Assembly (NCBI GenBank): GCA_963921795.1
Contig: OY997647.1
Location: 60,352,357 to 60,416,356, forward strand
From: Nannobrachium achirus
Lineage: Eukaryota > Chordata > Actinopteri > Myctophiformes > Myctophidae
Direction of reading: 5' to 3'
Length of the DNA: 64,000 bases
A program made the translations under genes and the position numbers. A model generated the notes under the pieces. The model searched no databases and was not told where the DNA came from. It saw only the letters and a program-made list of their open reading frames with translations. Each line of letters begins with the position of its first letter. Position 1 is the first letter of the stretch. Of this stretch, positions 445 to 63,450 are shown in pieces.

Positions 445-902
445 CAGGGTTGTTCGACAGGGGGTCCCGGACCCCTAGGGGGGTCCTCAGAGTTACTACA
501 GGGGACCCACCAAATCTTTGTGGTAGGATCATTCTTTTAAATGAACAACTTGAACCCTCGCATCCCTATTTTGAGGAGAACTTTAGCCAAAAATAGCAGA
601 TCTACAAGCTCTCAACTCTCAGCGCGAGGCGTTGAGAGCTTGTAGATCGGCTATTTTCAGCAAATAGGTTTGGTGTAGAGGTAAAAAAGAGCAGACCAAG
701 TACATAGTGAAAGGTCAAGTTAACCAAAAACACGAATCCAACATAGACTGATGACAGTGCTGTCAAACAAGTATATGAATAAATCTATGAAATCGATGAA
801 AATCTGCATCACACATCTAAACAATATGTAGAGGGGGTCCCTGCTTCATCTCTCTCTCAGCTAAGGCAGGGGTCCCTGGCCTGAAAACGTTGCAGACCCC
901 TG
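445..902 (+). mobile_element. Family F hAT-like MITE with internal hairpin
   Basis: The left end CAGGGTTGTTCGACAGGGGG and right end GTTGCAGACCCCTG are inverted. Full relatives at 22758-25520 and 34166-34560 have perfect 8-bp duplications, which identifies the family as hAT-like. The GATCTACAAGC hairpin occupies 588-659 with CTCTCAACT arms. Flanking duplication here is imperfect (GTCTAATC/GTCTTGTC). Confidence 0.8.
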
Positions 903-1163
903 GTCTTGTCTCTTAATAATAACACATATGACTATAATAATGACAATAAACGTAAGAGATCGTGAGAACCGACATGTAGAATTTGTCCACAGGCTATATA
1001 ATTGCAAGGTGCACTCGTGTTCGTGTATAATGCACACCCAGTTCATGGAAGTAGTGTGGTTTATAATTCATGACAATATGTTACTGCAGCCACGATGAAC
1101 CATAGAATACTTTTATAATGTCAAGTTCAATATTTGGATGACGATGGACGTATAAGTGTGTTC

Positions 1164-1530
1164 GCGACCGTCAGGTCGCAGTTACTATTTTTGCCCCTGC
1201 ACTTATCTCTGGCACCGTTGGCCCTATCGATGCCAAACTTTGCACACACACTCCTTGGATGGCAAATCACAACCTCCGCCCCTGATTTCTCACATGGCCC
1301 TCTTCTAGCGCCACCGTCAGGCCGATTCTTGCAATACACATTTTTGGACACTGCTCCTACAGATTTTGCCCTAAAATCACGCAAAGTGGTACACAGTATC
1401 TCTAAAGTCATGTCATCAACATGGATCTGTCCCTTTTCCCATATTCTCTACTGATTGGCTACCATCGCCTTCTAAAGTTTGTGTGTGCAACGTGGCGGTC
1501 GCTTATCTCCAGATTAGGGAGTCTTACTGG
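1164..1530 (+). mobile_element. Family H, Helentron-like non-autonomous element
   Basis: The 5' end carries the palindrome GCGACCGTCAGGTCGC. The body has conserved blocks: CCAAACTTTGCACACACACT, TCACATGGCCCTCTTCTAGC, ACATTTTTGGACACTGCTCC and TGTCATCAACATGGATCTGT. The 3' end has GGCGGTCGC, a CTCC-AGATTAGGGAG hairpin, TCTTA and terminal CTGG followed by T. Subterminal inverted repeats, a short 3' hairpin and a CTRR end are the hallmarks of Helentron/HINE elements. No Rep/helicase coding is present. The long open frame here (1134-1454) is repeat sequence, not a gene. Confidence 0.7.
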
Positions 1531-1654
1531 TAATGCAATCTGAGCACATTGGTCATGAGAAAATCAGTACAACACTTAGCAGTTATTTACTCAGAACGGA
1601 CATGCTCTAAGTCAGGGGTTCACTCCCAGCACCTTTATACTGTATATTTATAGC

Positions 1655-1787
1655 ATATTGTCGTTGTTGGGTGGAAACTTGTATGTCCAAAACCTTTCGA
1701 TTTCTATTTATCATCAAAAAAAATTACTAAACTAGTGAAAACAGCCGATCTACAAGCACACAACGCCTCGCATCGCGAGGCGTTGAC
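1655..1787 (+). mobile_element. G/W cassette fragment with one-armed hairpin
   Basis: The sequence from TCGTTGTTGGGTGGAAACTT through AACTAGTGAAAACAGCCGATC matches the left half of W (43404-43894) and, inverted, the right half of G. The hairpin stops after its GC-rich loop (CGCATCGCGAGGCGTTG) and the right arm is missing. Confidence 0.65.
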
Positions 1788-2090
1788 ATTGCCTTATTCC
1801 TGCTACATGTACTGTATATTCTACAGTTCCTCTATGAATTATGACTTTCATGTGCTTTTACGCACCCTCGCGATCACCGCCCGGATGCGTCGGATGAGTA
1901 ATTATTGTGGCTAATGATGATGTATCGATTCTGGACAACAAAATGCTAACAATTTGCTGCTTCCGTGAATCTGGAAATGGCTCCCTGCTGGACCCTAGCT
2001 GGAGAAGGCCACTCACTCTGGTTTCTCTCTCTGTTGTGTCCTGTTTCTCCATGTGACTACCATTTTCTCTGACACTGTCCGATTCTCTTT

Positions 2091-2578
2091 TTAATCCATT
2101 TAGGCCTAGAATTATTGAATGCTTTAACCAGCGAAACAATTGCAGATATACAAGCTTGCAGCGCGGCACCGAGTGCAGCGCTGCGAGCTTGTAGATCTGC
2201 TATTTTTGAAAAAGTCGTGAAAATGTGTGCAAATCTTTGAATATATGTATTTTCAAAGCGAACGTTTGTAACTCAAATTTTGTTTCTGGGTGGTCCTGGA
2301 ACGAAATATTTTGAGATGCGGGTCCGTGGCCAAATATTTTTGGGGGTCCTTCTTATGAAATAGTTTGAGAACCACTGACATAGTAGTCTCTCAAGAACAG
2401 ACTAACTGCTCCATTTAAGTGAAAAGGACCTTTTCTTTGACGATGGCTGGCCAGATTGCTGACATAGAAACATAGGTTTTTCAAAAAGTCTTAGAAGGAT
2501 TCAAAAGACACTTATAGAATCGGGTCAAAATTCTAATTTTCACGATTTAAATAGCAGATCTACAAGCTACAAACTACT
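2091..2578 (+). mobile_element. Family A TTAA element, right end lost
   Basis: It starts TTAATCCATTTAGGCCTAGA, then a hairpin at 2141-2207, the GGGTCCGTGGCCAAATA block and the GATGGCTGGCCAGATTGCTG block. It breaks inside its second hairpin (2549-2578), where family H 3' sequence begins. Complete family A copies are about 500-600 bp with TTAA at both ends. Confidence 0.8.
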
Positions 2579-2639
2579 CGTCCTAAAATCACGCTGCGAC
2601 CTGACGGTCGCTTATCTCCCGATTAGGGAGTCTTACTGG
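2579..2639 (+). mobile_element. Family H 3' end only
   Basis: TCCTAAAATCACGC is followed by GCGACCTGACGGTCGC, CTCCCGATTAGGGAG and TCTTACTGG|T. It is joined to family A in the middle of A's hairpin, which looks like a breakpoint or replacement rather than a clean insertion. Confidence 0.75.
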
Positions 2640-3025
2640 TTGATATGCATTGTTCCGTCGAAATGAACAAATAAAGTAAAGTAAAGTCGATGTGTAACGG
2701 TTGTCCTCATGGGAGGTCAGCTCTGAACAGTGGAGACAGCCATACGTTGGCTCTCAGGATCACTACTATCACACAGCGTTATGGTTACAGCAGTGAGCAG
2801 ATGGCACCGGGGCGAGGCCTGTAGCTACACAGACCTGGTGTTTTATTAGCACTGTGGCTGCCACACAAGGGACCCGGAGAATCCGGAGCCCGTAAAAACC
2901 CCCGTCAGCATTCATCCGTCATAGGCAATTACCATCAGCTGATAATCGACTATGACAAGCTGTGAGCCTCTAATATGGGATACGGCAGATCCGCTTGTTA
3001 CGGTCCTCCTCACACACTTTGGATT

Positions 3026-3891
3026 CAGGGGTGTCGCACCAAACTCTGGGTCCTGGGTAACTTTAACTGTTGAAAAATAGCAGATACAAGCTCGCAGCGT
3101 GGCACCGAGTGCTGCGCTGCGAGCTTGTAGATCTGCTGTTTTTGAAAAACCGTGAACATTTCTTTGAATGTTTCAAATCCTTCTATGTTTTTCTATATGA
3201 GTGGTGCTCTGTGGTACATCTCAACATATCTAGTTCCAGGGACCACCCAGAAGCAGCATTTCAGTTACAAATGTTCGCTTAAAAAATACATATTATTCAA
3301 AGATTTGCACACATTTTCACGACTTTTCAAAAATAGCAGATCTACAAGCTCGCAGCGCGGCACTCGGTGCAAGATACAGGCTCTCGGCTAGCTAGCACAG
3401 TAGCGCTAATGTTAGACCCTCTGTCGCTCTGTGGAACAGTGGACAAATGTGTTACTCCATAGCAGGATCCAGGCAGAGGTGGAACCTAATTCGATTGGTA
3501 ACCAAATGTTGTAAGTTGATACTTTGATGGCATTGCTTGCAGCTTGTAGGCTTGGAGTGCGTTGTGTTTACGCCCATTTGTGACGTAAATCGCGTCGCCG
3601 GTCAACTTTGGATCACTCCGTCAGGAGTGGGCTGCTCTGCATGAGCAAAGTTTGTTAAATTGAAATGAATGCGGTTCAAAGAGTGGCATGTTTAAAATGT
3701 GGACAGTGGGAAATTTTCACGTTTGTTCGACGTGGTGGCTATGTTTGTGAGAGGTGTTTGTGAGAATATGTAGCTAAACATTCTGGTTTAGGATTGCCTC
3801 CAAATGCTCCAATGTAGGTGTTGAGATTAAGGCCCCTTCACCTTGGGCCCTGGTAACTCAGTCCCACTTTTCCCCCCTTGTGACGCCCCTG
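3026..3891 (-). mobile_element. Family B hAT-like element with unusual 450-bp interior
   Basis: The ends CAGGGGTGTCGCACCAAA and TTGTGACGCCCCTG are inverted, with possible duplication TTTGGATT/CTTGGATA. The first hairpin (3072-3146) and the left half of the second (3328-3371) are present. From about 3372 to 3828 the normal interior is replaced by sequence not seen elsewhere in this window. Confidence 0.7.
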
Positions 3892-4317
3892 CTTGGATAT
3901 AAAGGCCTGGTACTCATAGTCGAGTGGTGGGGCCTTGAAACTTGTAATTGGACCCTGGAGAGCACATGGGTTTAATTAATTTTGTTTGATTTGGGTGTCT
4001 GCCGAGGCACGCGGCGGCGGCGGCGTGTGCTTCACACATTCAAATAAGCCCCGTGCGACTTTATATTTGTCCATTCCTGACGGCCTCGGTTGGCGTTTCA
4101 TGCATGCATGAAGGAGCAAATGAAAGCCCTGAGGAGTTCATGCGTAGTGTATGTTCAAGTGGGGTGATAGCCAGTCCAGTCCGGCCTTTCCCTGCCCTGG
4201 TTGGAATGGCTCTTATTTTCCCCCAGACTAGTGATATTTGCCTGTTGGGAAAGACGAGTGATACTAATGAAGATAAAGTTCTCCTGCAACATTTTAATTT
4301 GCTCGTCAGTGCGAAGC

Positions 4318-4893
4318 AAGGGATGGGACGATTATGAACATTTCCTGTCACGGTTATTGTGACGAAAGAAATCGTGATTTACAATATTATCGCGATAATC
4401 AAAATTCATTCTCCTGGGGTGGAACATTTGCCAAAATATAGCAGATCTACAAGCTCACAGCGAGTCGCGACGCGCTGTGAGCGATGGCTGGCCAGATTGG
4501 CTGGCCAGATTGCTGACATAGAAACATAGGTTTTTCAAAAAATCTTAGAAGGATTCAAAAGACACTTATAGAATCGGGTCAAAATTCTAATTTTCACGTT
4601 TTTTCAAAAATAGCAGATCTACAAGCTCGCAGCGCGGCACTCGGTGCCGCGCTGTGAGCTTGTATATCTGCTATTTTTCAATATTATACATTATACATTA
4701 TATATTATAAGTACCTTTTACCAATTATAGAGGGTTTAAGTGGTACCGGATATGCAGCTCGGCAAATAAAAGGTGAATTGATCCCAGTGCATGACGGAGG
4801 ATGATATCACGATGAATTTAATCTCCACGATACGATTATCGTGATTGTTTTTTATCGTGATAAACGATAATATCACGTATCATCCCATCCCTA
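4318..4893 (+). mobile_element. Chimeric element: family C ends with family A interior
   Basis: Left: AAGGGATGGGACGATTATGA through the first arm and loop of C's hairpin (4436-4482). The sequence then becomes family A interior (GATGGCTGGCCAGATTG, twice in part, then CACTTATAGAATCGGGTC) and the complete A right hairpin (4604-4680). It returns to C (TATTATAAGTACCTTTTACC) and ends CATCCCATCCCTA. No TTAA flanks the A segment, so it is not a simple insertion. Confidence 0.8.
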
Positions 4894-5141
4894 TGTTAAA
4901 CCCCCCCTAATGTAGATTAAACATTTCTTAGAGAGTCGTAGGATGGCAGAAGAGAAGAGTTGCTTAAGAGCTTATGAGATGTGTGTACAGATTACAAGAC
5001 ATAACGGTTCTTTCCTTGATGGAATGTCTGCTACTCTGCTTACAAAACCTGTGCGTAGAATATATAATACTAATGCTATCTCTCTTGAACAACCCTTGAA
5101 GAGATTGGCATTCAGGATGCTATCCCAGGAATCTTGTGCAG

Positions 5142-5705
5142 CAGGGGTGGGCAACTCTGATGATGGCGAGGGCCACTATATTTTCACCTTCACTCCAGAG
5201 GGCCACATTGCATATTGCTACTTCCTACTTTGTCATTCTAGTATCTCATGCGCGATGCGTCTTGAGCTTGTAGATCGGCTATTTTTGCTTCTTTTGAATT
5301 GGAATCCTGAATTATTTTTTGCTGCGATGCGTTTTGAGCGTGTAGATCGGCTATTTTTGCTTCTTTTGAATTGGAATCCTGAATTATTTTTTGTTATTTT
5401 TTAATTGGAATCCTGAAATGTAACATTTTGATTTAATTTCAAACACATAGTTATATATTCAGGTTGACTCTATGAACCTAAATACAAATACCTACATTGG
5501 ACATAAAACAAATAAATACATTTGAATACTACTATACTAGTCATTAAGCTACTAATATAGACTGACGGAATTAAAGCAGGTCATGTTTGGAATTGTAACC
5601 TGCTGAAATCAATAATATATCAGTATTCCGGTATTAACCAGCGGGCCGCATTAAGTGAAGGTGAGGGCCGCATGTGGCCCCCGGGCCGCCAGTTGCCCAT
5701 GTATG
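5142..5705 (+). mobile_element. Family S hAT-like element with tandem half-hairpins
   Basis: The left end CAGGGGTGGGCAACT is matched by right-end AGTTGCCCAT, and flanking TTGTGCAG/CTGTGCAG is a 7/8 duplication. Inside, 5252-5395 holds two copies of a 72-bp unit, each carrying a right hairpin arm (GAGCTTGTAGATCGGCTATT). An open frame (4943-5404) crosses its left end. It matches nothing I recognise and includes the tandem unit, so it is not called a gene. Confidence 0.75.
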
Positions 5706-5743
5706 CTGTGCAGTATTGGTTCTCAAAGTGGGGTCTGGGGTCT

Positions 5744-5758
5744 CCCCCCCCCCCCCCC
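5744..5758 (+). repeat. Poly-C tract
   Basis: An uninterrupted C run follows GGTCTCC. Similar C runs occur at 16639-16662, 27072-27093, 49395-49410, 57418-57431 and 59525-59546. Confidence 0.9.
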
Positions 5759-5877
5759 TGGCAAGTTAGTCAGTAGGCAAACAGCAGTGGCAAAACATAG
5801 CAATCTGTGTGGGGGAGGAATTGATTGGCATGACGTCTAAATTGCGAGAGAACAAAGGGGTGAAAAATAATTGTCTA

Positions 5878-6281
5878 TAGACCTGTCACAAGTATTACAT
5901 AATCATCTAATCGCAATTATTTGACATAATTGCAGTCATTTTGTCATAATCGTTTCCATGTTGAAAAAATAGTGGAAATGGCCGATCTACAAGCTCACAA
6001 CGCGTCGTGATGCGACACGTTGTGAGCTTGTAGATCGGCTATTTCCACTATCGATGTTCTTTTTAAAGTATAAATGATGTCAAATATGTCAGTCATTTCT
6101 TTGTACAGTATATTTAAGCTATGTGTCATATCTGCCATGTGCAACTTCAAAGCCTAAAAGCCAAATAGAAATGGCTGTAATTGTCAACAACAACAACAGA
6201 AACACAATGAAATCGTTAATCGCAATTATTTGAGTGACAATTAATCGTCAAATGAAATGTCATAATCGTGACAGCCCCACT
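5878..6281. mobile_element. Family R hAT-like MITE with complete hairpin
   Basis: The terminal blocks ACCTGTCACAAGTATTACAT and TCATAATCGTGACAGCCCCA are inverted, and CGCAATTATTTGA occurs at both sides. The central hairpin 5969-6051 has perfect family-specific extension (ATAGTGGAAAT / ATTTCCACTAT). Confidence 0.75.
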
Positions 6282-8500
6282 GTAATGATCTACTCCAAAT
6301 GTTAGAAAAAATATAAACAATATTAGTTTGTTGTACAACATGTACAATAGAGGGTATGGATCTACATCTCCATGTATGGGTATAAAATATATTGTATGTT
6401 GTGATGTCATGGGAACCACTCTAACAGAATCCCTTTCATGCCCATATAATGGAGATCCCTGATGTCATCAATATTAAGCCCATATCTAACAGGACTTCAT
6501 ATGGGAATGTCCATATATGGAGGAAGACGGCCCATATCTGTGGGGCTGGTTCAGACAGGGATCTCCATGTATGGGCATAAAAGGGATGTACTATATACAG
6601 TACATGGATCATGTGGGTAACTGGTCTGATATACATCACTGGCCAGATGGCAGGGCGAGGTCGCATGTCACCCTGAGGCGTCTTACTAGTGTATGTTGCT
6701 CTGCTTTACTAGTTGAATCATTGCACCTGATAACCCTAACCCTATAACATAAACACTCACATTGCACTGCCCTCCACACAATCGATAATGGACTATGATG
6801 ATATTTGCTGAATTTCCTGCTCAGTCAAATTAAATAAAATAAAATTTCCATCCTTAACATGGTTGTTTCTTGACCCGCTGCGACAGCAACCAATCAATCA
6901 AAGTTTAAATTCGACAGCATGAGATACATGATAATTTCCCCGCATTGGCCACATACAGTACTCAGCATATTTCACACAAAGGCGACCCACAAAGAAAGTC
7001 TAAGCTAGTAAGCTACAAAATGTGACCACTGTTGTAGTTCATATCGGTGAACTGCAGTAAAAATGAAAATGTACAAATAAAACCAAATGGACGCATCGAA
7101 CTTTAATACACAATTAGATATATTTATGGGATCCTTCATATATAATTTTGCCACCCTCCATGCTTTCCAGGAGGGCTACAAAATTACCCCAGAATGTATT
7201 TTTTGAAAATGGACTAAATATAGTACTTTGTAGTACAGCAGCCAAGTATGCGAAACATACAGACATTTGACACAAAACAGGATTACATACCGTACATAAG
7301 GACATACAGAAAAGAGCAATGTCCACCGCCTTGCTCTTGTCTCCATGTCCTTATACCAAGGTAAAGGAGAGGCCACGACTTACACTAGCTGACGATAAAT
7401 GTAACATATATTTACTGTACTCCTGCGGATGCCTACTGTGTGCCAGATGGTAGGTCACCCCCACCCTCCAAAGGGTGGAGGGCATTTCCATCAGCAGGTG
7501 GAGGGGTCATTCCATGGCCATGCAGATTGCAATATGTCGCCTGCATTACATGCAAATGAATGCAGCATAAAAGGGAACTCCAGAGTATGATGCTTAAGGG
7601 AGCTCCAGCCACCTGGCTCCAGTGAGAGGTTGATGAGTCTTTGTACTGTATGTAATGTGTTGTCATTATCTTTATTCAAGGCCTCTGGTTGCCTTGAAGG
7701 ACACAGGCAGGCGGGAAGTGAACTTACTTGTCCTCTAGCCATCTTGGCAGCTGAATCACAAAGTTTACTTGTCATTAATTCACCGGCCACTGGCCAAATT
7801 TCTGTAACAAATAGTGATGATAAAACGAATATGAATATGCTTTGAACAACAGTTGGTTGGTTACCTGCCAAGGTTGCTGGTAGGATTAGGGAACTCATGA
7901 GCGACTGCCAAAACTGCAGCGTTATTTCGCTGGCTTGTGGGTATTGTCATCTCACACATTGGGGACAAGCGCACGTGTGAAGGACTCTGTGCTGATCTCC
8001 AGTGTAACACGTGGACGGTAAATCGAGAGGCTGTACAGAACTTGTTCTGAGCAAACGTGGCCCTCTGGGATAGACATTAGCTGGAATCCCACCTGTTTAT
8101 GTTTGCATGAGCTATATTAAGAGAGACAGTTATTGTCTGAACAGACGAGTGCCCTGGTCCCCAAAGAGAGTAGAGCTGTGGGTTTATTGGCACACCGACG
8201 TTGGAAATCATGTGTGAGAGAGAGCCTCTCGTTTGCATCAAGCCTGGCCATTTAAATCACCCCACGTAGACTAGAGGAGTGCTGAGTTCATTTGAAATCG
8301 GCGCATGCATCCTCGTTCAATGGCCATGCTCTAGAATGCAATCATACTCGCAGACCTCACTTGAGCACACTCAGTGTAGAGTTCATGGATTAGTGGGTTA
8401 TCTCTGTCCACTTGTGTTCTCAAGATCAGGATTCAGTTCAAGCATAGAGACTACAGTGTACAAGTTGTTTTAAACACCTGTCGGAACCTTGTGTTGTCCA
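6282..8500. other. Intronic stretch without supported gene
   Basis: No coding exon or family member was recognised. At 6345-6620 there are several forward and inverted copies of a CCATATATGGAGAT / GCCCATATA motif with GATGTCAT, related to the tandem array at 23.5-24.7 kb. Open frames on both strands have no recognisable domain or splice-bounded structure. Confidence 0.6.
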
Positions 8501-8927: not shown

Positions 8928-8943
8928 GTTGTCCATGTAAACA

Positions 8944-12829: not shown

Positions 12830-13345
12830 CAGGGGCGTCACAAGCAGGGGGAAAGTGGGACTGAGTTACTAGGGCCTTAATTATGCTATACTTCAGCTAT
12901 TGAAAAATAGCAGATCTACGCTGCGAGCTTGTAGATTTAAGCTAACATCTGTAAATCAAATGTTGCTTCTGAGGGGTCCCTGGAACTAAATGTTTTGAGA
13001 TGGGGATCCGCGGCCAAATACATATCATTTTGGTCCTTCGCATGAAAAGGTTTGAGCACCACTGACATAGAAACATAGGTTTTTCAAAAATCCTTAGGAC
13101 TTGAAATATTCAAAGACTTCACGATTTTTCTAAAATAGCAGATCTACAAGCTCCAAGTGTGGCACTCGGTGCAGCGCTGTGAGCTTGTATATCTGCTATT
13201 TGTCAATAGTTAAAGCACAAAATAATGCGTAATAAAGCGTTCCCAGTCTAAAAGGGTTAAACGCCCTCCCCCTATGAAGAACATTCATGGGGGACTAGCA
13301 GTGAATCCTTGTACCCAGGGCCCAAAATTTGGTGTGCCACCCCTG
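12830..13345 (+). mobile_element. Family B hAT MITE with perfect duplication
   Basis: It runs from CAGGGGCGTCACAAGC to GTGCCACCCCTG. TCCACAAT is found at 12822-12829 and 13346-13353. The first hairpin is shrunken (12901-12940) and the second is complete (13127-13207). The interior is shared with family A (CATAGAAACATAGGTTTTTC block). Confidence 0.9.
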
Positions 13346-15186: not shown

Positions 15187-15682
15187 TTAAGCCATGTAGA
15201 ACGGGTACGCATCATTGCGTGATATTATTTTATGCTTTAACTATTGAAAAATAGCAGATATACAAGCTCACAGCGCGGCACAGAGTGCCGCGCTGCGAGC
15301 TTGTAGATCTGCTATTTTTGAAAAATCGTGAACGTTTCTTGACCCAATTCTATAAGTGTCTTTTGAATCCTTCTAAGGTTTTTTGAAAAACCTATATGTT
15401 TCTACGTCAGTGGTTCTCAAACTTTTTCACGTGAAGGAACCCCAACATTATATGTATTTGGCCACGGACCCCCCCATCTCAAAATATTTAGTTCCATGGA
15501 CCACCCAGAAGCAAAAATATGAGTTACAAATGTTCGCTTAAAAAATACATATATTCAACTATTTGCTCAACATTTTACGACTTTTCCAAAAAATAGCAGA
15601 TCTACAAGCTCGCTGTGAGCTTGTATATCTGCTATTTTTCAATAGTTAAGGCATCAAATAATACAAGGCCTAAATGGATTAG
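15187..15682 (+). mobile_element. Family A TTAA element
   Basis: It runs from TTAAGCCATGTAGAACGGGT to GGCCTAAATGGATTAG. Hairpins at 15243-15324 (complete, CAGCGCGGCACAGAGTGCCG loop) and 15585-15645 (loop deleted). The interior has the ACCCCAACATTATATGTATT and TCCATGGACCACCCAGAAGC blocks. Confidence 0.85.
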
Positions 15683-17240: not shown

Positions 17241-17726
17241 AGGCAAAGCTCTCTGTCTTCCGAACAATCTTCGTTCCCACTCTCACCTATGGTCATGAAG
17301 TGTGGGTCATGACCGAAAGTATAAGGTCTCGGGTACAAGTGGCCGAAATGAGTTTTCTCAGAAGGGTGGCTGGTATCTCCCTTAGAGATAGGGTGAGAAG
17401 TTCAATCACCCGAGAGAGACTCGGAGTAGAACCGCTGCTCCTACACTTAGAAAGGAGTCAGCTTAGGTGGTTCGGGCATCTAGTACGGATGCCCCCCGAG
17501 CGCCTTCCTAGGAAGGTCCTCGATGCACGTCCCACTGGGAGGAGACCCCGTGGCAGACCTAAGACCAGATGGAAGGATTATATCTCCAGACTGGCCTGGG
17601 AACGCCTCGGTATACTCCCAGAGGGAGTGGAGGAAGTTGCTCAGGATAAGGAAATCTGGAAGTCTCAGTTGGAACTGTTACCCCCGCGACCCGATTCCGG
17701 ATAAGCGGTTGAAGATGGATGGATGG
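17241..17726 (+). pseudogene. 5'-truncated RTE/Rex3-like LINE, 3' end of reverse transcriptase ORF
   Basis: An open frame from 17243 to the stop at 17702-17704 encodes the RT C-terminal region: LTYGHEVWVMTE, FLRRVAGISLRDRVRSS, RSQLRWFGHLVRMP, GRRPRGRPKTRW and ending ELLPPRPDSG. The GATGGATGG tail directly after the stop is typical of Rex3/RTE elements. Duplication AAGTACATT at 17232-17240 and 17727-17735 proves a target-primed insertion of a dead-on-arrival copy. No catalytic RT motif (YADD) is included, so the piece cannot act. Family placement is from memory. Confidence 0.85.
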
Positions 17727-34560: not shown

Positions 34561-34642
34561 ACATACAGTATTGTATATGCGGACAGGCAGCCAGCCAGTA
34601 GTAATAGCAGCTGGCTATTTGTTTCAGTATTTGTGTGCTGCT

Positions 34643-35249
34643 TTAACCCATTTAGAACGGGTACACATTATAGTGTATTATTATTTTATGCTTTAACTAT
34701 TGAAAAATAGCAGATATACAAGCTCACAGCGCGGCACCGAGTGCCGCGCTGCGAGCTTGTAGATCTGCTATTTTTGAAAAATCATGAAAATTAGAATTTT
34801 GACCCGATTCTATAAGTGTCTTTTGAATCCTTCTAAGGTTTTTTTGAAAAACCTATGTTTCTATGTCAGCAATCTGGCCAGCCATCGTCAAAGAAAAGGT
34901 CCTTTTCGCTTAACTGGAGCTCAGTTAGTCTGTTCTTGAAACACTACTTTGTCAGTGGTTCTCAAACCTTTTCATGTGAAGGACCCCCAAAATGATATGT
35001 ATTTGGCCACGGACCCCCATCTCAAAATATCTAGTTCCAGGGACCACCCCAAGAAGCAAAATTTGAGTTACAAACGTTCGCTTTAAAAATACATATATTC
35101 AAAGATTTGAACACATTTTCACGACTTTTTTCAAAAATAGCAGATCTACAAGCTCGCAGCGCGGCACTCGGTGCCGCACTGTGAGCTTGTATATCTGCTA
35201 TTTTTCGATAGCTAAAGCATTAAATAATTCTAGGCCTAAATGGGTTTAA
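34643..35249 (+). mobile_element. Family A TTAA element, best reference copy
   Basis: TTAACCCATTTAGAACGGGT to GGCCTAAATGGGTTTAA. Both hairpins are complete: 34701-34777 (loop GCGCGGCACCGAGTGCCGCG) and 35132-35206. The middle holds CAGTGGTTCTCAAACCTTTT, GGCCACGGACCCCCATCTC and the GTTCGCTTTAAAAATACATA block. Confidence 0.92.
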
Positions 35250-42130: not shown

Positions 42131-42487
42131 TAGGAATGGGACGATATGAATTATTGTGAGAAAAGAAATCGCGATTTACGGTATTATCACGATAATCAAA
42201 ATACATTATCCTGGGGCGGAACATTGCTATTTTTTGGCAAAGAGATTTGTTAGAGAGCGGGGAAAAAAGACTGTATCAAGTACGTATATTATACCTAATT
42301 GGTAAAAGTACCTTTTACCAATTATAAAGGGTTTAAATGGTACCGGATACGCAGCTCGGCAAATAAAAGGTGAATTGATCCCAGTGCATGACGGAGGACG
42401 ATATCACGATGAATTAAATCTCCACGATACGATTATCGTGAGAGTTTTTTTATCACGATAAACGATAATATTATCGTCCCATCCCTA
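42131..42487 (+). mobile_element. Family C hAT MITE lacking the hairpin
   Basis: TAGGAATGGGACGATATGAA to TATCGTCCCATCCCTA; perfect TTTCTATT at 42123-42130 and 42488-42495. Between GGAACATT and GCTATTTTTTGGCAAAG the whole hairpin and its left flank are missing. Confidence 0.93.
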
Positions 42488-46297: not shown

Positions 46298-46868
46298 CAG
46301 GGATGTGCTGGCCATTGGGAAAAGCGGGACAACTCCCGAACGACTGGTTCATTCCCGGCCGGTCCAGGCCGGCCATTAGGAAAAAAAATACAAATAAAAT
46401 GTCGGCCTTCGTTGCATTTTGGGGGCTGGGAGGCCAACAAAGTAAATCGTCACTGTCGGGCAGAAACCTTGTATCTCCAAGTTTCAAATTTGTGCATTTT
46501 TTTTTTCGCAAAGCAAAGCCCTGCTTCATCATACAAGGCCATTGCACAAAAGTAGTGAAAACAGCAGATCTACAAGCACACAACGCCTCGCACCGCGAGG
46601 CGTTATTTGTAGATTGGCTGTTTTCACTAGTTTAAATCATTTTTTAAATGATAAATACAAAACAAACGGTTTTGGATACAAGGTTTCCACCCGACAACGA
46701 CGAAATATAACTCATGTAATTGGCCCACTGGCTTGTCACTTGTCATGATCTGAAATGGCAAATCTTTGAGTAGCAGCAGAGCTATAGAGAGATCTCTCTC
46801 TATAGCTCGCAATGAGGGCCTCTACAACTCTTTTTCCCGGGCTGAATCAGGGGCCCAGCACGTCCCTG
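46298..46868 (+). mobile_element. Family G hAT MITE with perfect duplication
   Basis: CAGGGATGTGCTGGCCATTG to GGCCCAGCACGTCCCTG; TGGACAAC at 46290-46297 and 46869-46876. Hairpin 46551-46630 is almost complete with flanks AGTGAAAACAGC / GCTGTTTTCACT. Open frames across it are repeat-derived. Confidence 0.95.
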
Positions 46869-47295: not shown

Positions 47296-47867
47296 CAGGG
47301 GCGTCACAAGGGCCCGGGGGGGGAAAGTGGGACTGAGTTACTAGGGCCCAAAATAATCTTTTTCTTTAGCTATTGAAAAATAGCAGATATACAAGCTCAC
47401 AGTGCGGCACCGAGTGCCGCGCAGCGAGCTTGTAGATCTGCTATTTTTGAAAAGTCATGAAAATGTGTGCAAATCTTTGAATATATGTATTTTTTAAGCG
47501 AACATTTGTAACTCAAATCTTGCTTCTGGGGGCATCCCTGGAACTAAATATTTTGAGATGGTGGTCCGTGGCCAAATATATATATATCATTTTGGGGGTC
47601 CTTCACGTGAAAAGGTCTGAGCAGCACTCTGACATACAGTCATACATATATTTCTTTCCAAAAAACCTTAGGATTTGAAATATTCAAAGACATACGTGCA
47701 CAGGTTTTCACGATTTTTCAAAAATAGTAGATCTACAAGCTCACAGTGCGGCACTCGGTGCCGCGCTGCGAGCTTGTATATCTGCTATTTTTCAATAGTT
47801 AAAGCAGAAAATAATCAAAGTGAATCCTTGTACCCAGCAGGGCCCAGAATTTGGTGCCACAGCCCTG
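47296..47867 (+). mobile_element. Family B hAT-like MITE
   Basis: CAGGGGCGTCACAAGG to TTGGTGCCACAGCCCTG, flanks CCTCCATC/CCTCATCC. Both hairpins are complete (47373-47449, 47716-47793). Best copy for comparing B with A. Confidence 0.88.
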
Positions 47868-48477: not shown

Positions 48478-49031
48478 CAGGGTTCCCACGGTCATGAAAT
48501 TCCTGGAAATAATTTGAAATTAGAAAAAATACTTTTTCCAGTACTGGAAAAGTTTTGGAATTTGATCAAGGGTCCTGGAAGGTCCTGGGAAAAAAAATAG
48601 CTATGCATTGTCTTTGGTTATTGATTTTGTTAATACGTCTGAAATGACACATTATACATTGGCCAAATTGTCAAATATTAGAGGCAGAAATTGTGAAAAT
48701 AGCCGATCTACATGCTCACAACGCCTCGCAACGCGAGGCGTTGTGAGCATGTAGATCTGCTATTTTCACAATAAAACCGTGTTATACAAATTTCCTCAAC
48801 TCTTAGTGCTCTTCAGGGTGCCGGGATCCCCAGTTAAAATATGATTATTTCAGGGGTCACGGCCTGAAAAGGTTGAGAACCACTGGCATACACTGCCTGT
48901 CTTTGGGCATTGCGCATGGGAGTAAGCAACCTGTTATTGAGCTGAATTATTGTCATAATAGTCCTGGACATTGGGTTAAATATTCTGGAAATGTTTGGGA
49001 AATTAATTGGTAAAAATGTGTGGGAACCCTG
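48478..49031 (+). mobile_element. Family E hAT-like MITE, complete
   Basis: CAGGGTTCCCACGGTCATGA to ATGTGTGGGAACCCTG. The hairpin 48691-48771 is nearly perfect, with TTGTGAAAATAGC / GCTATTTTCACAA flanks and an ACGCCTCGCAACGCGAGGCGT loop. The CACGGCCTGAAAAGGTTGAG block is inside. Confidence 0.9.
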
Positions 49032-49433: not shown

Positions 49434-49720
49434 CAGGGGTCTTCAACAGGGGGTCCAGGACCCCTAAGGGGTCCTCAGAGTTACTACAGGGGGTCTTCCA
49501 AATCTTTGTGTGATAGAAACTTTTTTTTCTCCTTTTTTATATGAACCATAGCGTCCATATTCTGAGAACTTTAGCCAAAAATAGCAGATCGACAGTGGTG
49601 CGAGGCGTTGTCTGCTTGTAGATCGGCTGTTTTCACTAGTTTAAATGATTTTTAAAATGATAAATACAAAACAAACGGTTTTGGACATACAAGGTTTTCA
49701 CCCGACAACGACGATATACA
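49434..49720 (+). mobile_element. Chimera: family F left half joined to family G right half at the hairpin
   Basis: CAGGGGTCTTCAACAGGGGG, GTCCTCAGAGTTACTACAGG and TTAGCCAAAAATAGCAGATC are family F. After the loop the arm GCTTGTAGATCGGCTGTTTT and TCACTAGTTTAAATGATTTT..AACAAACGGTTTTGGACAT are family G. The left flank is F type (AATAGC), the right flank G type (CTGTTTTCACTAG). The G terminus is missing. Confidence 0.85.
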
Positions 49721-54015: not shown

Positions 54016-54016
<1 letters not shown>

Positions 54017-54127: not shown

Positions 54128-54141
54128 GTGAGAAGAATGGG

Positions 54142-54243
<102 letters not shown>

Positions 54244-54334
54244 CCCTGGTTGAGCGGTGTGAATGTGCATCTTGTACTGATTAGATTAAGAGCCAGACAG
54301 CTTTGTAAGAGTGAAGCAGAGGGACCGGAGCATG

Positions 54335-54900
54335 TTAAACCATTTAGGCCCAGAATTATTGAATGCTTTAACCAGTGAAAATTAGAAGATATACAAGCTC
54401 ACTGAGTGGCACCGAGTGCCGCGCTGCGAGCTTGTAGATCTGCTATTTTTGAAAAAGTCGTGAAAATGTTTGCAAATTTTTGAATATATGTATATTCAAA
54501 GCGAACATTTGTAACTAAAGATTTTGCTTCTGGGGGGTCCCTGGAACTAAATATTTTGAGATGGGGGTCCGTGGCCAAACAAATATCATTTTGGGGGTCC
54601 TTCACATGAAAAGGTTTGAGAACCACTTAACTGAGCTCCAGTTAAGTGAAAAGGAGCTTTTCTTTGACGATGGCTGGCCAGATTGCTGACATAGAAACAT
54701 AGGTTTTTAAAAAAAACCTTAGAAGGTTTCAAAAGACACTTATAGAATCGGCCATTTCTGTCAAAATTCAAATTTTCACGACTTTTCAAAAATAGCAGAT
54801 CTACAAGCTTGCAGCGCGGCACTCGGTGCCGCGCTGTGAGCTTGTATATCTGCTATTTTTCAATAGTTAAAGCATAAAATACCCGTTCTAAATGGCTTAA
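54335..54900 (-). mobile_element. Family A TTAA element downstream of the STT3B exon
   Basis: TTAAACCATTTAGGCCCAGA to ACCCGTTCTAAATGGCTTAA. Hairpins at 54375-54451 (left arm partly decayed) and 54783-54861 (complete). Confidence 0.9.
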
Positions 54901-55981: not shown

Positions 55982-56117
55982 TATGGGATGGGACGGTATG
56001 AAAATGTCACATCACGATTATTGTGACAAAAGAAATCGCGATTTACGATATCATCGCGATAATCAAAATCCATTATCCTGGGGTGGAACATTTGCCAAAA
56101 AATAGCAGATCTACAAG
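55982..56117 (+). mobile_element. Family C left-end fragment
   Basis: ATGGGATGGGACGGTATGAA through CAAAAAATAGCAGATCTACA. It breaks inside the first hairpin arm. Confidence 0.8.
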
Positions 56118-56261
56118 ATGGGCTCTGAAGCGTGGCCTACATCTGGCCCAGCTATGGCCTACATTAGGCCTGTCAGTTTGCCTCTAAAATCCCATTCGAA
56201 TTTCATTCATTCATTATTGTTCATTTTCGAAAATAGTCGAATAGTTTATATAATATATAAA

Positions 56262-56302
<41 letters not shown>

Positions 56303-57461: not shown

Positions 57462-57465
<4 letters not shown>
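56118..57465. other. Intron, no gene; hAT-like fragments and (AT)n
   Basis: TAGGCCTGTCAGTTTGCCTC (56166) is mirrored by CATTCTGACAGGCCTA (57030-57047), and TCGAATA motifs lie inside both; possible hAT of about 880 bp. An (AT)n tract is at 56263-56300. A decayed hairpin is at 56401-56466. A C run is at 57418-57431. Confidence 0.5.

Positions 57466-57512
<47 letters not shown>
57466..57512 (+). repeat. (CA)n microsatellite, left part
   Basis: A CA run interrupted by family C at 57513 and continued at 57948-58047. Confidence 0.95.
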
Positions 57513-57516
<4 letters not shown>

Positions 57517-57947
57517 GATGGGACGATATGAAAATTTCATATCACGATTATTGTGACCAAAGAAATCACGATTTATGATATTATCACGATAATGAAAATC
57601 CATTATCCTGGGGTGGAACATTTGCCAAAAAATAGCAGATCTACAATTTCACAACGCGTCACGGTTGTGACGCGTTGTGAGCTTGTAAATCGGCAATTTT
57701 TTGGCTAAGTCATTTGATAGAGAGTGGAAAAAAAAGACTATCAAGTATGTGATTTATGAGTACCTTTTACCTATTCTAGAGAGTTTAAGTGGTACCGGAT
57801 ATGCAGCTCGTCAAATAAAAGGTGAAGAATTGATCCCAGTGCATGACGGAGGACGATATCACGATGAAAATTAAATATCCACAATACGATTATCGCAAGT
57901 GTTTTTTATCACGATAAACGATAATATTGCGTATCGTCCCATCCCTA
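57513..57947 (+). mobile_element. Family C hAT MITE inserted in a CA microsatellite
   Basis: CAGGGATGGGACGATATGAA to TATCGTCCCATCCCTA with CA repeats on both sides (duplication ACACACAC is compatible but not provable). The hairpin 57622-57705 is complete with TTGCCAAAAAATAGC flank. Confidence 0.88.
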
Positions 57948-57961
57948 ACACACACACACAC

Positions 57962-58047
<86 letters not shown>
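57948..58047 (+). repeat. (CA)n microsatellite, right part
   Basis: A CA run with one CG interruption. Confidence 0.95.
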
Positions 58048-58051
<4 letters not shown>

Positions 58052-58324
58052 AGAGACCCGTCGTGGTCCGTTTGGTGTGGATGTAGCCGAGGTGTTAAGG
58101 TCTGTGTGACTGTGCCTATGGGGCTTTCATGGAATGTGACATCCATAATGCAGATGCTGGCTACGGGGAGAAAGAGTGAGCGTTCTGTTCCCCCCCTTCT
58201 GGCTTTCAGAATAATCTCTCCAAGGGGAGCGGGTGGGAGAGGGGAGGTGGGGGTTCTCTTTGCAGACGGGGTGGGAATACAGGCCCAGTAGGTGAGCCAT
58301 GCTCCCTTTCAGAATCAAAGGGAG

Positions 58325-58888
58325 CAGGGACGTGCTGGCCATTGGGAAAAGCAGGACAACTCCCGAACGGCCGGTTCATTCCCAGCCAGTCCAGGCCGGC
58401 CATTAGGAAAAAAACAAAAATAAAATGTCGGCCTTTGTTCCATTTTGGGGGCTGGGCGGCCAACAAAGTAAATCGTCACTGTCGGGCAGAAACCTCGTAT
58501 CTCCAAGTTTCAAATTTGTAATCTTTTTCGCAAAGCAAAGCCCTGCTTCATCATACAAGGCTGTTGCACAAAAGTAGTGAAAACAGCAGATCTACAAGCA
58601 CACAACGCCTCGCACCGCGAGGCGTTGTATGCTTGTCGATCGGCTGTTTTCACTAGTTTAAATCATTTTTAAAATGATAAATAAATACAAAACAAACGGT
58701 TTTGGACGCACAAGGTTTCCACCCGACAATGACGAAATATAACTCATGTAATTGTCCCACTGGCTTGTCACTCTGTCACAAATCTTTGAGTAGCAGCAGC
58801 GCTATAGAGAGAGATCTCTCTATAGCGCGCAATGAGGGCCTCTACAACTCTTTTTCCCGGGCTGAACCAGGGGCCCAGCATGTCCCTG
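58325..58888 (+). mobile_element. Family G hAT MITE with perfect duplication
   Basis: CAGGGACGTGCTGGCCATTG to GGCCCAGCATGTCCCTG; AAAGGGAG at 58317-58324 and 58889-58896. Hairpin 58574-58656 complete (loop CTCGCACCGCGAGG). Confidence 0.95.
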
Positions 58889-59035
58889 AAAGGGAGAAAC
58901 GCAGGGAGGAGGGAGGCCAACTGATTGACATGCAGAGATGAAGCTAAAGTGTCTGTTTGGGTGTCCTTTGATCGACAGCTCCATTCTCCACCCTGGCCCC
59001 TGTCAGGCTGTCACCACAGATAATTGCATCATGGG

Positions 59036-59567
59036 CAGGGGCGTCGCACCAAATTCTGGTCCCTGGGTACAAGGATTCACTGTGGGCCCCCCATGAATGA
59101 TCTTATTTTGTGCTTTAACTATTGAAAAATAGCAGACATGCAAGCTCGAGCTTGTAGATCTGCTATTTTTGAAAAGTCTTTGAATATTTCAAATCCTTCT
59201 AAGGTTTTCTGAAAAATCGATGTTTCTATGTCAGTGGTGCTCAAACTTTGATGTGAAGGACCCCCAAAATTATATCTATTTGGCCACGGACCCCCATCTC
59301 AAAATATGTAGTTCCAGGGACCCCCCAGAAGCAACATTTGAGTTACAAAAAATACATAATTTATATTCAAAGTTTTGCGCACATTTTCACGACTTTTCAA
59401 AAATAGCAGATCTAAAAGCTTGCAGCGCGGCACTGTGAGCTTGTAGATCTGCTATTTTTCAATAGCTAAAGTATAAAATAATTCCAGGCCCCTCCACCTT
59501 GGGCCCTGGTAACTCAGTCCCACTCCCCCCCCCCCCCCCCCCCCCCTCCCCCCTTGTGACGCCCCTG
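59036..59567 (-). mobile_element. Family B hAT MITE
   Basis: CAGGGGCGTCGCACCAAATT to TTGTGACGCCCCTG; flanks ATCATGGG/ATCATGGA. Hairpins 59122-59172 (short) and 59397-59462. A poly-C tract (59525-59546) lies inside the right end. Confidence 0.9.
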
Positions 59568-59867
59568 ATCATGGAAGCACTTTCAGCCCTCTCATCAACT
59601 ATTCATGACACAGTCTCTGCACTGCTACGGCTGACCTCTGGTGGTCGTAGGCCGGATTATTGGGAGAGCGATAAAATCGAGGCTCAGCAACTTGAGGCCC
59701 CTTTCAACAGTGTGTTTGTCTAATCTGCAATCTTGAACCAATGTCTTTGCTCTTGATGATATAGTGGGTCAGTCACCTCCAAACTCCAGTGCAAGCATCC
59801 ATAGATAGCTGGTAGCTAGCAGTATAACTCTTATGTTCACTAGAAGGCAGAAATCCACACCTCTACT

Positions 59868-60665
59868 TTAAAGGGGCCACACCATGCTTTTAAAAATATA
59901 TATTTTATATAAATATTGCTCCATAATACGGTTTTATACAGGTTTTAGCCTAAACAACCACTCAGATATTGACATTTCGTGTTCTGTCTGTTTCTAATTC
60001 CAAGCCATTTCAGATGCAATACCAAAATGCCCTTTGTTGGCAACGGGGCGCTGTCTTTGGGCTAAAATTGGAACAATAGAATATATCCTCCCAAAAAGTA
60101 CCGTCCCCTTCTCGAGGGGGCACAATAGGAAATGAGCCCCTTTGTGACATGAGCAAGGGGCCGATTTCAAAAGAGTACCGTTCAGACACGCCCATTCAGA
60201 AAATCACTGAAATGAAAGGCAAGGCTTAGAGTTAATGAATGCTTTTTTTTTTTTTTTCTGGGAGAAACTGGGAAGACCAAAAAACAAGAAAGAAATTAAA
60301 AAATCAAACCCAATGTGAAGTGAGCGGTGGGCGTGCTTGCACAACGTCTTCAATTGGTAATTGGTGATGTAATACAGGCTACACACACACGCACATTGCT
60401 ATGGCAAAACGCTGAGGAAAACACACTGTTATGGCAAAACGCTGAGGAAAAGTGGCTACAGATAGTGGCTACAGATAATTGGTGATGTAATATGATGTAA
60501 TATGGCTACACACACGCACACATATTGCTATGGCAAAAGGCTGAGGAAAACACATTGCTATGGCAAAACGCTGAGGAAAAGTGGCTACAGACACACGCAC
60601 AGCCACTCTTAGGAGCGGTTTACCACCGCTCAGACAATGTGAAATTCATGGTGTAGTCCCTTTAG
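59868..60665. mobile_element. TTAA-type element of about 800 bp with internal minisatellite
   Basis: TTAAAGGGGCCACACCATGC and CATGGTGTAGTCCCTTTAG are inverted. Inside, GCTATGGCAAAACGCTGAGG units repeat four times (60390-60590). Confidence 0.65.
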
Positions 60666-61018
60666 AGTTCAAGTTGTGTCTGTTTTGGGCGGGCAGCCCG
60701 ATCATCATGCTTAAATATGGAAACGCCTGACGCCACAGCACAGCAGGCGTCTTGCAAATCAGTGCCATTAGAAACGGCTGACATCTGCGCAGTTGTTTGG
60801 CAAAGGTTTCTGTCATATGTGATGTCAGACCAGAGCTAGATCAGTGAGATGGAGAGACAGGAGAGAGGGAGGCAGAGAGGGTGAAGGAGAGGGGGAGAGA
60901 GGGAAGAGAGAGGGAGGCAGAGAGGGTGAAGGAGAGTGGAAGGATGAGTGTGATGTCAGACCAGAGCTCCATGTGAGGCAGTGCCTCTTTCACCCATTTA
61001 ATAATAGGGAATTTATGG
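60666..61018. other. Intron with duplicated GA-rich minisatellite
   Basis: GAGAGGGAGGCAGAGAGGGT with GAAGGAGAG occurs twice (about 60862 and 60907). TGTGATGTCAGACCAGAGCT is also duplicated (60820, 60949). Confidence 0.7.
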
Positions 61019-61582
61019 CAGTGTTCATTTTGTCGACTAAAACTATGACGAAAAATGTTTGTCGACTGCGTTTTCTTCACTGACGAAAACTAAATAAAAA
61101 GTAAGCTGTGCTGACTAAAACTAATTAAGACATGAGACATTAAATATATATTGACAATTTCGTCAACAAAATAAAAACTTGACTAAAACGTTATGGAGGG
61201 ACTAGTGGAAAAGAGAGTCATTTTGTGTTTGGTTGCTCTCAGGTGTTGCTGTTGCCTGCTGAAAATAGCAGATCTACATGCTCACAACGTGTCGCGCTGC
61301 GACGCGTTGTGAGCTTGTAGATCAGCTATTTTCAGCACTCAACCAAGTGTAAAATCAGCCATTAAAATGCCGCGTATTTTGGCAAGGCCTGCCAAAATAC
61401 ATTTTAGTTGACTAAATCAACTGTAGATTTAGTTGCCTAAAATCGTATGATATTTAGTCGACTAAAATTAGACTAAAACTAAAACTTTTCAGGTGACTAA
61501 ATTATGACTAAAACTAAAATACATTTTATTCCAAAGACTATGACTAAAACTTAATCAAAATTTGATGTAAAAAACAACACTG
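61019..61582 (+). mobile_element. Family Q hAT MITE
   Basis: CAGTGTTCATTTTGTCGACT to AAAAACAACACTG, duplication ATTTATGG/ATTTAAGG. The hairpin 61256-61337 is complete with TGCTGAAAATAGC / GCTATTTTCAGCA flanks. Confidence 0.88.
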
Positions 61583-62630
61583 ATTTAAGGAGCCCTTTCT
61601 ACTACTGCGACGCGAGGCAGGACTACGGCTGCTATGACGCAAACATCCGTCGGCGACGGGGTCCCACCCCTTTTACCGAACGCTTTGGTTCCCATGGCGA
61701 CGCGTCTGTACAGCAGACGTTTTAGGCAGCAACGTGGAAAGGGAGCTTCCAGGGTAGTACAGACGGCTGCTACGGCAGCAGGTTCATCCATCGAGCGCTG
61801 ATCATTTCCGGTTGCCGTTTGTCATCTGCCGTAGCCGTCCAAAGCTTAAATAGCCTAATAACCCAGCCACTGCTGGGTACCAAAATCTGAACATGCTCAC
61901 TGACGAGTTGTCAGCGCTGTTCGGCCGCGTTTTGTCCTTGCATAGTCATTTGTGTCCCAGCGCGGCTGACGGCTAGTCATTGCATTTTTTCTCATTTTCA
62001 TTTTTTCATTTCACTTGAAAGCTGGGGATCATAGCTACAAAATGATATATTGGTTGTGGAGATTGACCCAACAGTTTTGAAGATATGGCTTATAGAATGA
62101 TGCCATGCTACTTTTGAGATATTCAAGTTCTAAATAAATGTCTAACCTGCAAATGACCTGACGATCTCTCACATTAATTAAAAAAAAGTCTTAAAAGAGT
62201 TAAGCTCTGGCGTATAAGTGAAATTTAGCCTAGATATTTTGAGATGCATTTGTGGCTTTTTCATTTTAGAAAAAACAAACAAAAAAAACATATTAGCAGT
62301 AGTGAAAAAACCTGCCTTACGAAATGACTGCCCCTCAGTCACGCTGAGTGAATACATTTTTTATTCAGTTGTTTGTGGAAAAGGATGAAGCAGTTGTGAT
62401 GTTCCGGGGGTCGTTGTCTCTGAAGTCTTTCGGTGAGGACTGGAGGTCATTGTCTATACCTTAGCCCGCAGGGAGACGTTTAATAAAATATGAGCCTTAG
62501 TGTCTCACAAGGAAATGCACTTGGTGGCATGCTAGACATACCATTAATGTCTTGTGTTCCATAATCCGTGCAGGCAAGAGCTATATTTTCTTTGTGCACA
62601 TAAATATTTAGAAATCCCAAAATCTACTGT
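61583..62630. other. Intron, no gene
   Basis: Nothing recognised. The GC-rich part at 61600-61800 has a reverse open frame (61585-61791) without a recognised domain. Confidence 0.55.
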
Positions 62631-62812
62631 GTAAAGGCCCATTCCCACTGGGCCAGATAACAGATAAAAAAAATCTCTTTCGCCAGATATTTTTCCATTG
62701 AAGTGGATTGTAGGTACAGATAAAAAAGACATGTCCCAGATTAAAAAATATATACAGTATATATCTGTGACAGATATATATTTTTTTATCTGTATCTACC
62801 ATTGGGCCTTAA
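62631..62812. mobile_element. Small TTAA-like palindromic MITE
   Basis: GTAAAGGCCCATTCCCACTG and CATTGGGCCTTAA are inverted. GGTACAGATAAAAAA and TTTTTTATCTGTATC are inverted inside. Confidence 0.6.
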
Positions 62813-63154
62813 CTTTCTGGAAGTCTTTTTCACGGCCCCAAAGAAATAGCGTGACACTTTTGTTTGAACAATGTAGTGGTTTGTTTATTTTAATTAAAAA
62901 TGTATTTTAAAAACCCTCCCTTTTTAAACTCTGGACCTTGTGAAGGATGTTTGGAATGAGGTTAGCCAACGGATTGGACACAGTGGCAGTGGCTGATGTA
63001 CTGTAGGCGGAAAGGGCGATGGGGTCAGGCAAAGGAAATGCTAGGTTGTGGTTGGTGTGAAGAAAAGACTGTAAACTTTTCCATGTGCTCCAGTAGGACG
63101 ACAGGATGGGGTTGGCGAGGCCCTGGGGAATGAATGGTATGCTGGGCTCGGAGG
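62813..63154. other. Intron, no gene
   Basis: Nothing recognised. The reverse open frame (62907-63173) is not supported by any domain. Confidence 0.5.
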
Positions 63155-63450
63155 CAGGGGTGTCGCACCACATTCTGGGCCCTGGCCTGGGTACAAGGAT
63201 TCACTCACATTTTGTGCTTTAACTTTTGAAAAATAGCAGATATACAAGCTCGAGCTTGTAGATATGCCATTTTTTGAAAGATCTTGAAAAAAGTCTTTGA
63301 ATATTTCAAATCCTTTTTTTGTCCCGTTTTTTGAAAAACCTATGTTTCTATGTCAGTGGTGCTCAAACTTTTTCATGTGAAGGACCCCCCAAAATGATAT
63401 GTAGGCCTATTTGGCCACGGACGCCCATCTCAAAATATGTAGTTCCAGTA
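63155..63450 (-). mobile_element. Family B element, right part missing
   Basis: CAGGGGTGTCGCACCACATT, hairpin 63226-63276 (short), GGTGCTCAAACTTTTTCATG and CCATCTCAAAATATGTAGTT in family order. It stops at about 63450. Confidence 0.8.

Follow-up and report, generated by a model that had tools for sequence, protein, structure and literature searches.

Coral genomes (Acropora) harbor CMITEs, miniature inverted-repeat transposable elements (MITEs) of about 100 bp that are flanked by TTAA and have terminal repeats that differ by family around 75 conserved internal bases (Wang et al. 2010, PMC2872659). The main text of that report suggests that the internal region matters for transposition, proposes but leaves open a requirement in cis, and describes tandem arrays as well as a new composite transposon made by a CMITE insertion. 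The subject of the present analysis is a palindromic hairpin that recurs throughout a 64,000-nucleotide stretch of the genome of the fish Nannobrachium achirus (assembly GCA_963921795.1, contig OY997647.1, positions 60,352,357 to 60,416,356), referred to as the window. The fish elements that carry the hairpin are of the same kind as the coral CMITEs, which are the closest known system.

As in the CMITEs described in that report, the fish elements are flanked by TTAA, have differing terminal repeats and an internal region that is conserved between families, and occur in composites and arrays (PMC2872659). However, the internal sequence is a different one. The terms "palindrom," "hairpin," and "stem-loop" are absent from the main text of the coral report, and a palindromic internal region and composites with hAT elements belong to the fish elements. 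The scale also differs, the fish having on the order of 10^5 intact hairpins and 10^6 partial arms. Palindromes in the ends of piggyBac and piggyBat are bound by two transposase cysteine-rich domains (CRDs) (PMC11707139). A palindrome inside the end of a TTAA transposon that serves as the site for a transposase dimer is a functional precedent for the role proposed below, but the palindromes in that account are short and near the tip, whereas the fish palindrome is about 80 bp long and internal. The open-licence PubMed Central literature yielded no occurrence of the arm sequence besides one Theileria paper and, among the matches listed, no description of a palindrome shared across fish (zebrafish, teleost) MITEs.

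The explanation that we favor, with moderate confidence, combines an old clan of TTAA-type MITEs, nesting in hAT MITEs, and a palindrome that is kept for work in cis. Most carriers would belong to one large, old clan of nonautonomous TTAA-type MITEs with the plan TTAA site, terminal repeat CC[AC][AC]TTnAnCC, fast-evolving linker, near-perfect palindrome of about 80 bp, linker, terminal repeat, and TTAA. Some members of the clan would have inserted into hAT MITEs, with later copying of one composite or more, placing the hairpin inside other ends. Descent from a TTAA element together with such nesting would thus explain the mixture of carrier ends. The palindrome would be retained in active source copies for its work in cis; the simplest role would be that of a site bound, as duplex DNA, by a transposase or cofactor. 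Dead copies would lose the palindrome by palindrome deletions.

Abundance of the hairpin

The palindrome was first described in a previous analysis of the window that had only the letters to go on (here, the sequence-only reading), and it proved to be real. The 13-mer GATCTACAAGCTC, with up to two mismatches, is present at 84 places in the window, compared with a mean of 1.18 and a maximum of 4 in 100 dinucleotide shuffles. In the genome searched (1.66 Gb in 564 contigs; GC content, about 0.43) there are 295,224 exact copies (147,921 + 147,303) and 2 (1 + 1) of the reversed control. Two-armed hairpins with exact 11-bp cores gave 78,542 matches genome-wide, overlapping ones in arrays being counted separately, and the reversed control gave none. 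Near-perfect palindromes are common in MITEs, and nothing beyond that commonness favors an origin of the likeness in independent palindromes that resemble each other by chance or mutational bias. The sequence-only reading had named such an outcome as one that would undo it. The likeness goes far beyond chance, and the counts of the 13-mer refute this alternative, to which we assign a negligible probability.

A 29-nucleotide arm profile, built from 68 arms of the window, scored 89 arms of the window at or above 10 bits; these make up 34 two-armed hairpins and 21 single arms, close to the "about 36" and "at least 15" of the sequence-only reading. All ten coordinate ranges that it had quoted contain the palindrome, one of them (46551-46630) with a degraded second arm. 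With up to three mismatches in the 13-mer, the window has 31 two-armed and 34 one-armed places, although some of the one-armed places are chance matches. At 8 bits, the profile gave 233 matches in the window and the additional loci, versus 2 in the reversed sequence. In 20 arbitrarily placed 10-kb stretches, 16 of which were positive, there were 113 arms per 194,540 non-N bases. Extrapolation gives a genome-wide total of about 0.96 million arms (bootstrap, 0.66 to 1.28 million), or 0.58 arms per kb. Rfam models run against the window at gathering scores gave no matches and thus do not support a known structured RNA. The hairpin sequence was not found in viral contigs (20-mer query) or plasmids (81-nucleotide query).

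Structure of the hairpin

In full, the unit measures about 70 to 84 bp, forms a near-perfect palindrome with a loop of about 3 to 4 bases, and is laid out as a family-specific outer arm, AAAATAGC, [AC], GATCTACAAGCTCACAACGCGTCGC, the loop, and the mirror image of these parts. Since the outer arms are family specific, the hairpin is a unit without fixed ends. Twelve hairpins from about ten flank types, chosen by eye for good preservation (two each of W and K-like, none of G), were aligned and had a mean column identity of 82%. The internal region is conserved between families above the rest of the elements, in that the hairpins align and the flanks of different families mostly do not.

Across these 12 hairpins, 92.9% of the positions in a 36-pair stem are paired, compared with 31 to 44% when the partner is shifted by one to three columns. 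Double-sided changes were found in 15 of the 36 stem pairs, amounting to 33 such cells versus 11.3 in shuffles (0 of 500 shuffles reached this number), and the covariation score was 0.229 versus 0.103 (0 of 500). Further pair types were less striking (26 versus 22.4; reached by 20 of 500 shuffles). The shuffle control leaves the relatedness of the hairpins in place. Taken together, pairing and covariation indicate that the middle of the arm retains its sequence and that most of the stem retains its complementarity.

Carrier families

Clustering was applied to the flanks of the hairpins, 79 two-armed and 63 single, from the window and the loci; from this step onward, two overlapping loci (L003 and L007) and arms below 10 bits were dropped. 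Clustering gave recurrent left-right flank pairs, and the family names used here are labels coined in this analysis for those flanks. The two-armed hairpins fall into families A (33), W (10), E (6), F (5), C (4), G (4), K (4), and Q (2), one F/W chimera, and 10 unassigned. As the sequence-only reading had noted, the hosts differ in their ends and target duplications (8-bp hAT-type or TTAA).

In most carriers the flanks are unalignable right up to the palindrome. This pattern would suit a hairpin that moves independently and inserts into transposons, perhaps with a preference for short palindromic targets, an alternative that we consider quite unlikely in light of the evidence on its ends, given above, and on its insertion sites, considered below. 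The right flanks of C and F align by BLAST (E value, about 1e-5). In flank comparisons with shuffles (120 tests; R not included), the F/C score was reached by 3 of 200 shuffles, which is no better than E/Q (1 of 200), A/W (3 of 200), or A/E (5 of 200) and is about what 120 tests yield by chance.

Some copies stand in tandem. A small array at C1:469826-469961 (G000) has four exact arms and overlapping two-armed matches at a spacing of 37 to 43 bp, and recalls the arrays of coral CMITEs. At positions 5259 to 5400 of the window, a G-type arm is duplicated in tandem together with its flank (arms at 5264 and 5336).

A shared TTAA tip

Carriers share a terminal tip outside the hairpin. Genome-wide, 12,884 arms have a TTAACCnnTT tip 12 to 42 bp outside the arm, versus 472 with a single permuted tip as the control. 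In A, F, and several unassigned carriers, the distance from the hairpin outward to a TTAA[n]CC tip is 11 to 125 bp. A TTAAnCC tip is present within 130 bp on one side or more of 21 of the 79 two-armed hairpins, versus 0 to 6 for five control motifs, and near 8 of the 63 single arms, versus 0 to 3 for the same controls. The tip that A, F, K, and some of W have in common is TTAACC[AC][AC]TTnAnCC, and individual tips read CCCATTTAG or CCACTTnAnCC. Among four elements that were examined for target duplication, the A element at 34642-35249, whose 119-bp inverted arms are 90% complementary (ends at 34642-34655 and 35236-35249), has TTTAA on both sides, and the element at 54335-54900 has TTAA on both sides. 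Other target sites are imperfect: TTAA/TTAT at L022:5153-5351 and TTAA/TTAG for an A element near 15190-15680.

Among the tip-to-arm matches listed, the F, F', C-like, A', and K groups share TTAACCACTTnAnCC with graded linkers. For 20 linkers picked by eye, with the tip and arm excluded, homology was scored in 16 comparisons, uncorrected for their number. It was supported for A'-A (z = 5.8), A'-K (4.6), F-F4 (3.5), F with its own right side (F-FR, 3.3), and F4-C (2.7). K-K6 was also supported, and A-F and A-K weakly so. Outer arms of the W type stand behind TTAACCACTT at 36 places, many of them different and some with a W-like linker, as read by eye rather than scored.

To judge from these tips and linkers, one clan of TTAA-type MITEs, characterized by a central palindrome of about 80 bp, appears to include A, F, and K as subfamilies. 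C and W probably also belong to the clan, C weakly by linker homology and W by a few listed relatives. At least for the commonest carriers, the hairpin is the shared middle of one diverse MITE clan, some members of which are nested in other transposons, rather than a free-roaming module. The claim of the sequence-only reading that the families, at least ten, are unrelated thus does not fully hold, since A, F, and K, and probably C and W, share a TTAA tip outside the hairpin. The favored explanation would give all carrier groups together one common ancestor.

Nesting in hAT-type MITEs

One element demonstrates how a hairpin can come to lie between hAT ends. L022:4996-5461 is a hAT MITE with exact 8-bp duplications (TTTTAAGT) on both sides, within which a TTAACCACTTGAACC-ended element (5153-5351) surrounds a hairpin (5247-5308). 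The right-side junction, which stands 93 bp off the arm, is found again in L016, the left-side one in a shortened form in L024, and L022:1340 has both. Because the junctions recur in other copies, the hAT/TTAA composite appears to have been copied. Two further places, near position 13276 of the window and near 5319 of L019, have a hAT tip and, after it, the TTAA tip belonging to an A element, as nesting would predict. The composite resembles hAT-type MITEs in its tips (CAGGGG../CAGTGGTTCTCAACC) and its exact 8-bp duplication, but the hairpin in F belongs to the nested TTAA element and not to the hAT MITE itself. The sequence-only reading had argued that the difference between 8-bp hAT and TTAA duplications excludes common descent; for F, and probably for A, the nested composite answers this objection. 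It also illustrates one transposon hitch-hiking on another superfamily.

Copies without the hairpin

If the hairpin moved on its own, one of the two routes in the sequence-only reading, uniform empty sites would be expected. Exact flank words of the C family lie 67 to 97 bases apart (filled) 1,278 times genome-wide and 0 to 30 bases apart 79 times. The 79 C copies without the full hairpin comprise 68 distinct sequences, and 22 of them keep inner-arm letters. Thirteen of the 79 reduce to TTTGCCAAAG (7 copies) or TTTGGCAAAG (6 copies), which are themselves short palindromes. These two short forms could be empty sites at short palindromic targets, and an E relative in L019, which reads ATATTGTGACAATG at the hairpin site, could be read in the same way. 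However, the other 66 C copies are varied, and deletion can explain all 79; the two short forms may be products of 4-bp microhomologies in the arms (CAAA, TTTG). L019 is ambiguous as an empty site since it may carry a degraded arm. From their letters, the C copies without the full hairpin look like assorted palindrome deletions. With no uniform empty site for C, none for F, and family-specific outer arms in place of constant ends, a free-moving hairpin was rejected.

Drift, recombination, and the role of the palindrome

Within families, divergence from the consensus was 10.2% for arms and 12.2% for flanks (81 copies in 10 clusters; the clusters with fewer than five copies, c4 and c7, are outside the pooled figure), and the flank value is biased downward because the copies were found by their flanks. 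Arms that drift nearly like flanks argue against strong homogenization of dispersed copies, which was therefore rejected. In C, 5 positions had mirror-image double changes on both arms, 3 of them identical with 1.63 expected, among 80 copies (of 1,278; 96 were typed, and 16 without two clean arms were dropped). Correction within the hairpins of single copies was not accepted on this signal, which is only suggestive.

These results also bear on the possibility, unlikely in our view, that families exchange the hairpin through recombination, or through template switching, at the palindrome. One F/W chimera in the window is joined at the hairpin (Table 1), and the few C copies with mirror-image changes point in the same direction. 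However, this is one chimera per 79 two-armed hairpins, deletion between neighboring copies would also yield one, and the near-flank drift of the arms and the weakness of the mirror signal speak against frequent exchange. The chimera has no obvious target duplication. Trading, the other route that the sequence-only reading had offered, may thus have happened at least once and is possible for E, Q, G, and R, but A, F, and K are explained by descent and nesting.

Because arms agree between families, linkers mostly do not, and within-family drift is near the flank rate, the constraint probably acts on active source elements. In a nonautonomous element, an internal requirement in cis is suggested by a central palindrome more durable than everything except the tips. 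By analogy with the piggyBac ends, the palindrome would most simply be a cis-site for transposition. Covariation along the stem argues for more than two half-sites, that is, for folding or arm-to-arm correction. The palindrome may act as folded DNA or RNA or as a duplex binding site, and the present data fit either. It is a tentative and rather unlikely possibility that the palindrome is a portable, structure-conserved cis-signal of about 80 bp that lets both TTAA- and hAT-type MITEs amplify and that spread by nesting and hairpin-centered recombination. If so, one module, and not one transposon lineage, drove the expansion of DNA transposons in a vertebrate-sized genome. At roughly 10^5 intact hairpins and 10^6 arms, the genome also amounts to a natural experiment, on a large scale, in the decay, deletion, and perhaps self-correction of long palindromes.

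Candidate transposases

The transposase class of the TTAA clan is one that we infer. Among 952 piggyBac transposase candidates, 116 were scored; 5' flanks were read for four gene groups and further ends for one. No TTAACC tips were present in the stretches read from the four groups. Two of the piggyBac gene groups have in common an F-like unit that lies upstream of the DDE domain and contains a degraded hairpin (L044:498-582 and L045:485-557). The hairpin was rejected as part of a piggyBac gene, because it is apparently intronic in both loci and, at 0.58 arms per kb, may be an insertion. A W hairpin at L045:208-306 is 98% complementary.

Arms were present in 2 of 12 hAT transposase loci fetched (L029 and L040), which is near background. 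The idea that an autonomous F element lacks the hairpin was abandoned: in L037 an F tip lies about 1.4 kb past a hAT open reading frame, but the left tip was not found, and nothing follows from it. Open piggyBac-type transposase copies occur in equal-scoring sets of 562, 572, 541, 589, and 407 amino acids, which are probably recently active families in this genome. Upstream of the 562-amino-acid gene, L048:1-1200 contains a long direct repeat with a period of about 550 to 615 bp and exon-like pieces, as judged by eye.

Evidence against a single TTAA clan

Several observations weigh against the TTAA clan with a cis-kept palindrome. TTAAnCC tips stand on both sides of only 2 of the 79 two-armed hairpins. 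Outside the shared tip and arm, F linkers are not significantly similar to those of K (P = 0.26) or A' (P = 0.11), nor are the pairs F4-K, F4-A', K6-A', FR-K, and F-C. The ACATGC arm of E occurs at none of the 36 places with a W-type outer arm behind the tip. A Q-type outer arm stands behind the tip at 68 places, but the 48 for which letters were obtained are mostly F variants, and Q is therefore not linked to the clan. E, Q, G, and R are without demonstrated TTAA ancestry (E and Q tested in part). The fish tips, CCCA or CCAC, depart from CC[CT]T, the hallmark of the coral tips as given in that report (PMC2872659). For F, a clean test for empty sites turned up none, and the sole near-empty match keeps a remnant of the terminal repeat. 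Arm drift varies: in 5 of the 10 clusters, A most clearly, it is below that of the flanks, and in the other 5 (among them C, F, and G) it equals or exceeds it. The 3.6 kb read for the 562-amino-acid piggyBac gene lacks TTAA[n]CC, the hairpin of this gene may be an insertion, and no transposase with these tips was found.

Other features of the window

Hairpins and carrier elements of the window are collected in Table 1.

Table 1. Coordinates of hairpins and carrier elements in the window
Feature	Coordinates	Basis
Family A element with TTAA-type ends (TTTAACCCATTTAG..CTAAATGGGTTTAA, site included) and two inverted hairpin copies	34642..35249	sequence
Hairpin, left copy, family A	34701..34777	sequence
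Hairpin, right copy, family A	35132..35206	sequence
A core with hAT-like tips (CAGGGGCGTCACA..TGCCACAGCCCTG); flanking 8-mers similar, not identical	47296..47867	sequence
Hairpin of the hAT-tipped A element	47373..47449	sequence
Hairpin, F family	588..659	flank clusters
Hairpin, R, family-specific outer arms ATAGTGGAAATGGCC/GGCTATTTCCACTAT	5969..6051	sequence
Hairpin, W family, shortened loop	43576..43636	flank clusters
Hairpin, W family, degraded second arm	46551..46630	sequence
Hairpin, E family (hAT-type tips), compensated ACATGC/GCATGT	48691..48771	alignment
Hairpin, C family	57622..57705	sequence
Hairpin, Q family, TTTTAGTCGACTAAA-type host	61256..61337	sequence
F/W chimera: left flank and hAT tip of the F type, joined to a right end of the W type by way of a damaged hairpin	49434..49717	sequence, flank clusters 8 and 1
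A element, TTAA both sides (TTAA-ACCATTTAG..CTAAATGGC-TTAA)	54335..54900	sequence
C copy without hairpin, one outer arm kept; looks like a deletion product	42213..42242	sequence

A repeat of the form CCATCCATCC..CAACCGCT[TA]ATCCGGAATCGGGT interrupts K- and C-type flanks near position 17700 of the window and near 2419 of L006. Since the two places share it, another dispersed repeat evidently inserts into these MITEs.

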